Positions 28,164 to 28,820 of a stretch of DNA of 64,000 bases are shown here, one piece after another. A program made the translations under genes and the position numbers. The notes under the pieces are model-generated. The model did not search any database, had not been told where the DNA came from, and worked only from the letters and a program-made list of their open reading frames with translations. The stretch covers positions 1-64,000 of the forward strand of contig NZ_LGKN01000003.1 of the NCBI RefSeq assembly GCF_001306175.1, in the 5' to 3' direction. Position 1 is the stretch's first letter, and every line of letters begins with the position of its first letter. The DNA is from Ardenticatena maritima (lineage in GTDB: Bacteria; Chloroflexota; Anaerolineae; Ardenticatenales; Ardenticatenaceae).

Positions 28164-28820
<657 letters not shown>

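Follow-up and report, generated by a model that had tools for sequence, protein, structure and literature searches.

The window, by which I mean the whole 64-kb stretch of DNA analysed here, carries two RAYT genes, copy 1 and copy 2 (Table 1). Between them, at 24593-27973, lies a gene for a 1126-aa PLD-like and SNF2-type helicase protein that resembles restriction or defence helicases. Both RAYTs exceed the Pfam cut-off of 23 bits for the Y1_Tnp domain, copy 2 with 24.7 bits and copy 1 with 32.5 bits, and both are matched by the NCBIfam RAYT model (E about 1e-17), in either case under its curated score; for copy 2, REP_Tyr_transpos gives E 6e-18 and 65.1 bits, under the curated 80, over two matched stretches. 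An AlphaFold2 model of copy 2 (built from 41 sequences, mean pLDDT 81.7) was matched by Foldseek to the ISDra2 transposase and to the E. coli RAYT-REP complex 4er8 (E 1.7e-5, rmsd 2.7), and judged by Pfam and Foldseek together copy 2 has a Y1_Tnp domain with HUH and the TnpAREP fold. I take PNHVHG, residues 86-91, to be the HUH motif. Downstream of it, W154, Q155, E160, H161 and R164 are invariant in the 41 aligned sequences, and upstream a helix segment includes E64, T68, I71, R72 and N74. Residues 101-118, in the linker between the HUH strand (88-95) and the helix at 127-146, have a pLDDT below 50, and this linker loop is predicted to be disordered.

Table 1. Positions in the window of the two RAYT genes and of the segments discussed in the text.
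Feature	Position	Strand	Basis
RAYT (TnpAREP) copy 2, 222 aa	28152..28820	+	ORF; Pfam Y1_Tnp; NCBIfam; 4er8 match of the model
Helix 1 segment, residues 56-74, putative hairpin-tip reader	28317..28373	+	Covaries with pairs 13-14
Presumed HUH motif PNHVHG, residues 86-91	28407..28424	+	H88 and H90 invariant in 41 aligned sequences
Double-foot REP-like palindrome GTCGGGGC-GCAGCG-T-CGCTGC-GCCCCGAC	28452..28480	.	Sequence; codons 101-110; single copy in genome
Helix 2 segment SLGAIVRAFKSAVTR, residues 126-140, putative reader of pairs 9-12	28527..28571	+	Covaries with pairs 9-12
WQRNYYEHIIR, residues 154-164	28611..28643	+	Aligns with the GTAG-contacting E. coli TnpAREP region (4er8 alignment)
RAYT copy 1, 236 aa, divergent paralogue	23785..24495	+	ORF; Pfam Y1_Tnp
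Copy 1 linker, 18-bp direct repeats, half-palindrome-like GGGGCGGACC units	24066..24165	+	Repeat search
Copy 1 linker palindrome GTAGGGGCGGACCTGCGTGTCCGCCC, arm GGACCT	24166..24191	.	Sequence; arm predicted from copy 1 helix residues
Copy 1 linker, second palindrome GGGGCGCACACACAGGTGCGCCCCTAC	24221..24247	.	Hairpin search

In the linker of copy 2, GTCGGGGCGCAGC-GTC-GCTGCGCCCCGAC forms a perfect inverted repeat with 14-nt arms around a single T, and its codons read VGAQRRCAPT in the frame of the gene. A sequence-only reading of the window had reported a 13-bp palindrome here, located between the HUH motif and the last helices, with copy 1 carrying repeats of different sequence at the same linker; all of this was borne out, the pairing extending over one position more. 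The foot is symmetric (GTCG...CGAC), whereas the published double-foot type is GT[AG]G...C[TC]AC. Only two hairpins in the window score at least 13 with a loop of at most 8, namely this palindrome and one at 41448-41479, which looks like a terminator with an A-tract and a T-tract on its sides. The 13-nt arm alone is not unusual in this GC-rich window, with 8 matches at 2 mismatches against 5.3 expected; what is unusual is a perfect inverted repeat at the linker site, not the sequence of its arm. Just 5' of copy 2, at 28080-28106, there is a further hairpin with 10-bp arms, CCACCTGCCC-CATTCGC-GGGCAGGTGG, which has no GTAG foot.

In the genome searched (3.56 Mb, 98.6% complete) the pattern GGGGCGCAGC-N(0-12)-GCTGCGCCCC occurs once, inside the copy 2 gene, and the full 29 nt find no second place with 3 mismatches allowed. 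REPs are present in many copies, mostly intergenic; as the copy 2 palindrome is single and lies inside a gene, it is here termed REP-like. Palindromes of the GTAGGGGC...GCCCCTAC type, with the foot prevalent among relatives, number zero in the 3.56 Mb, and given this and the one copy only, there is no REP family here for copy 2 to mark. Neither does a GTAG-footed hairpin lie beside the gene (27900-29000), where a REPtron would have flanking cognate REPs. The genome-wide count proposed in the sequence-only reading thus returns the RAYT gene itself and no dispersed family. That reading had also made its case depend on the palindrome being found elsewhere or being kept in close relatives; it occurs nowhere else in the genome, yet the relatives L043, L051 and L065 retain its type.

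For the relatives, 141 sources were read (80 genome-contig loci, 60 regions of relatives, and the window), 17 of which gave no RAYT. They yielded 125 RAYTs with both halves found and 120 distinct linkers, so that the insertion at this site varies in length and sequence, as in the tnpAREP subclass 2.4 discussed below. Of the 120 linkers, 93 hold a hairpin with a score of at least 9; length-matched stretches of the same genes hold one in 1 of 119 cases on the upstream side and in 0 of 120 on the downstream side. The foot is GTAGGGGC in 71 of the 93. Across 54 distinct palindromes placed in register, 95.7% of the cells of the inner six pairs show Watson-Crick pairing, compared with 43.7% (maximum 50.0%) when the partners are shuffled among sequences. 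Two reading frames are used by seven arm types, and hence one DNA palindrome encodes different peptides. It is the DNA hairpin that is kept, rather than the peptide, and this pattern extends across phyla.

The sequence of the hairpin follows two short stretches of the protein. For this comparison the linker was left out of the protein alignment (103 rows, an arm being labelled in 72); the 6-nt arm comprises hairpin pairs 9-14, with pair 14 at the tip. Residue 72 and pair 14 are associated with a z of 19.2 by label permutation, where the largest z anywhere in 200 permutations was 7.1. Averaged over columns with an entropy of at least 1.5 bits, z climbs along the arm for residues 56-74, from -0.1 at pair 9 up to 5.7 at pair 14. 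Residues 126-140 start with 3.1 (pair 9) and have 6.2-6.6 at pairs 10-12, 5.9 at pair 13 and 5.5 at pair 14; the mean z of residues 17-55, 75-92, 141-153 and 154-195 stays at or below 1.6 throughout. Partial Mantel correlations separate the two segments: helix 1, given helix 2, correlates with the tip (0.48) and hardly with the stem (0.03), and helix 2, given helix 1, with the stem (0.36) and less so with the tip (0.16). As a statistical association, then, the hairpin tip tracks residues 56-74 and the mid-stem residues 126-140, and the rest of the protein has almost no association with the palindrome sequence.

This association can be turned into a prediction of the arm, in which the stem is taken from helix 2 and the tip from helix 1 (eleven residues in all). 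On leave-one-out, 31 of the 72 arms are predicted without error and 58 with at most one mismatch, figures that are optimistic because the residues were selected on the same 72 rows. A palindrome lies within or next to the gene in 28 of the 31 unused aligned rows, and for these the prediction comes within one mismatch in 12 cases, 5 of them exact; random arms would give 3.05, and the largest of 2000 draws was 11. The arms of L112, L116, L119, L224, L206 and L198 are among those missed by at least three mismatches. Copy 1 is one of the unused rows, and its arm GGACCT is predicted exactly, the linker having GTAGGGGC-GGACCT at 24166. For one relative without an internal palindrome (L240) the predicted arm is GGTTCG, and GGTTCG flanks the gene on both sides. 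That two short protein stretches predict the hairpin sequence suggests a readable recognition code.

The reading that I favour, and hold to be probably correct, is that the copy 2 palindrome is a REP-like hairpin of double-foot kind, with a GTNG foot on each of the two strands, carried in frame in a flexible loop, and that the RAYT encoded by the same gene recognises it. The palindrome itself is real, in frame, single-copy in the genome, and placed in a disordered loop. The RAYT would bind the hairpin folded from single-stranded DNA: the invariant WQ..EH..R segment would read the GTAG-like foot, and the stem would be read by the helix that follows the linker; the helix ahead of HUH (residues 56-74) would, to judge by covariation alone, read the tip. 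RAYT activity, or recombination between REPs, may have put a cognate copy into the loop and may keep it there, which would be the sole cognate copy in this genome. Insertion into the loop could be harmless and could be retained because the enzyme then travels together with its substrate whenever the gene moves. The sequence-only reading had supposed that each RAYT marks its own REP family, and one part of this stands: each paralogue has its own palindrome, and since these follow the protein segments, with that of copy 1 predicted, they are supported as the likely recognition specificity. The marking of a family does not hold here, the palindrome being single.

Alternatively, the palindrome could have been inserted passively and have nothing to do with the specificity of the RAYT, if REPs insert without preference and the linker is simply a loop in which in-frame insertions are tolerated. 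The predicted disorder of the loop agrees with this, as does the choice of frame, since 63 of the 93 linker palindromes have the foot in frame 0, 28 in frame 1 and only 2 in frame 2, where a GTAG foot would create a TAG stop. Moreover, 19 of the 120 relatives are without a linker hairpin of score 8 or more, showing that the internal copy is not essential, and intragenic REPs, like the RPEs of Rickettsia (PMC3733652), are palindromic repeats in frame in coding sequences just as that of copy 2 is, described in many unrelated genes; in the text of that paper that is at hand, RAYT genes are not named among the carriers. However, passive insertion does not lead one to expect that 16 of the 151 palindromes listed from 18 genomes would lie inside RAYT genes, which sum to 21.6 kb of some 65 Mb, nor that the RAYT would have a palindrome even in genomes with few or no other copies (G000, G004, G005 and G030), and it leaves the dependence of palindrome type on two protein segments without a cause. 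I regard it as unlikely.

Common descent of linker and protein, producing the correlation without any recognition, is a less probable explanation still. Kinship does leave a signal, with 17 of 78 nearest neighbours sharing an identical type against 2.7 expected, and the family tree is poorly resolved: built on the N-terminal columns only (50), it has none of its 75 branches starred, and closest-pair and Mantel tests were used instead. Closest relatives that differ in a given residue were therefore paired, with the distance measured outside both helices; these pairs are partly interdependent and the residues were picked on the same rows. In 19 of 23 closest pairs R72 accompanies G at pair 14, with 0 against; at pair 9 (3 to 4) and pair 11 (3 to 8) these closest pairs are not tilted in that direction. 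For P128 the partners are A at pair 9 and G at pair 11, each in 10 of 14 closest pairs with 0 against, an association that is absent at pairs 13 and 14. E74 accompanies G at pair 13 in 14 of 16 pairs, and T126 accompanies T at pair 10 in 9 of 14, both again with 0 against. Shared ancestry alone would not make the associations so specific for single bases. Nor would it confine them to the helices: the 44 variable columns outside the helices, despite some kinship signal (Nrest-Crest Mantel 0.21), give the right arm in 1 of 72 rows with a mean of 3.39 mismatches in 6, against 3.48 for random pairs, whereas eleven helix residues give it in 26 of 72 with a mean of 1.07. GC content was considered as a confounder and rejected, the loci with R72 and G14 having a lower GC than the other loci.

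That a regulatory hairpin in mRNA or DNA (translation pausing, autoregulation, transcription attenuation), or correction of quasi-palindromes by template switching, maintains the palindrome is very improbable: REPs elsewhere act on transcripts and the palindromes stay perfect as their sequence changes, but a generic hairpin needs no match of its stem and tip to two separate protein segments, and relatives without a linker hairpin exist.

Dispersed palindromes were counted in the 60 relatives and in the 40 genomes behind the loci, some genomes being common to both sets. Palindromes of the GTAGGGGC...GCCCCTAC class number from 0 to 185 per genome, and a control pattern from 0 to 2. Of 179 distinct palindromes outside RAYT in 25 genomes whose RAYT palindrome is known, 20 match the arm of a RAYT in the same genome, compared with a mean of 7.2 when genomes are permuted (20 being reached in 8 of 5000 permutations); counted per genome, such a match is present in 11 of 25 against 4.6 expected. 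For this comparison RAYT-internal copies were dropped by hand, G033, G071, G075, G079 and G088 were left out, and one copy in G093 is unlisted. When the whole library of RAYT arms is considered, 79 of 191 distinct dispersed palindromes have their arm in it, against 18.7 expected, and from these two matches I conclude that internal and dispersed palindromes form one pool. For the remaining 159 of the 179, none of the RAYTs found in their genome has a matching arm, so that many dispersed palindromes have no matching RAYT in view. Closer to the genes, a GTNGGGGC hairpin lies within 500 bp outside the gene in 45 of 120 RAYTs, and where internal and flanking palindromes are both present (n = 26) the arms agree fully in 8 and with at most one mismatch in 15; shuffled arms give 1.1 and 3.8, with maxima of 6 and 10. 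Plasmids gave 0 matches at the DNA level and 3 to 4 at the protein level, and the linkers of three plasmid regions and 4 viral loci held no usable palindrome, which leaves these replicons without use as an outside test set. Palindromes of this class number 185 in G089, 159 in G094 and 71 in G056. A search of G056 with copy 2 as the query found no RAYT relative, and several of its palindromes stand near contig starts, as if within longer repeats.

A bolder proposal, to which I give an even chance, is that these RAYTs are self-labelled, the hairpin in the gene being read by a two-part helix code, in which the helix before HUH would read the tip and the helix after the linker the mid-stem, and serving as a portable seed from which a REP family could be founded anew after transfer. 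Few enzymes have so far been tested for how a RAYT chooses its REP hairpin. Should the palindrome inside the gene prove to be the cognate hairpin, every gene of this kind would be a ready pair of enzyme and substrate, some seventy gene-palindrome pairs would already outline how residues read base pairs, and both the specificity of RAYTs and the way in which REP families originate would become directly testable. Were the self-labelling true, the code could be read from sequence alone and would predict the REP types of uncharacterised RAYTs.

Palindromes inside RAYT genes are a kind already in print, of which copy 2 is a further member. Quentin and co-workers (2018, PMC6006769) describe tnpAREP genes of subclass 2.4, equated there with RAYT group 4 of Bertels et al., in which REPs are inserted in frame, generally between HuH and Y, and 'double-foot' REPs with GT[AG]G and its complement at both ends. 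Copy 2 resembles what is described of subclass 2.4 in its in-frame REP-like palindrome between HuH and Y, in the variable length of the insertion and in the scatter over phyla; its foot is symmetric, as in double-foot REPs, but reads GTCG, and it differs in a genome without dispersed copies or a flanking GTAG REP. The available portion of PMC6006769 gives no link between protein residues and the sequence of the inserted palindrome. It does discuss W94, Q95, E100, H101 and R104 of E. coli TnpAREP for the recognition of GTAG, calling the role of W94 unclear; in the alignment to 4er8 these residues fall on the invariant WQRNYYEHIIR, and the foot of the family is nearly invariant as well.

The REPtrons of groups 2 and 3 (E. 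coli, S. maltophilia and Marinomonas; PMC8266576) likewise pair an HUH-Y1 enzyme with cognate GTAG hairpins, and a co-evolution of RAYT and REP has been proposed for both groups (PMC8266576). In the same source K82 of E. coli TnpAREP contacts the mid-stem, and in group 3 the loop bases matter; by its position between HUH and WQ, K82 would lie on the helix after HUH, the counterpart of 127-146 here, which is the segment that tracks the pairs of the mid-stem. There, however, the REPs lie outside the gene and specificity was examined with SELEX in three systems, whereas here the palindrome is in the gene and the evidence is covariation; the text of PMC8266576 contains 0 matches to group 4. The TnpA proteins of IS200/IS605 elements (IS608, ISDra2) share the fold and the HUH-Y1 chemistry with copy 2, but their recognition hairpins are at the ends of the element and the palindrome of copy 2 is within coding sequence. 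Searching the open-access literature for the letters of the copy 2 palindrome gave, among the matches listed, chance ones only, and an association of residues with bases was not found in print among open-licence papers.

The surroundings of the two genes in relatives add some minor observations. A clean empty site for copy 2 was sought at the helicase orthologue of G005 and none was found, as a RAYT lies upstream like copy 1 and the downstream genes differ. At this locus of a family member (L253, G005:C44, 2687-3130 and 4717-8097) the orthologue is 74% identical over its C-terminal part, and the RAYT upstream occupies the place of copy 1, yet it has a GACGCA-type palindrome and a sequence nearer to copy 2, a different RAYT at the same site. 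Tandem half units like the 18-bp repeats of copy 1 are also present in the linkers of L065, L198 and L213, and their sequences suggest growth from one palindrome arm. In a sister genome of the same genus, the RAYT L186 (G001:C102) carries a linker palindrome with another foot, GTAGAGACGTTGCAATGCAACGTCTCTAC.
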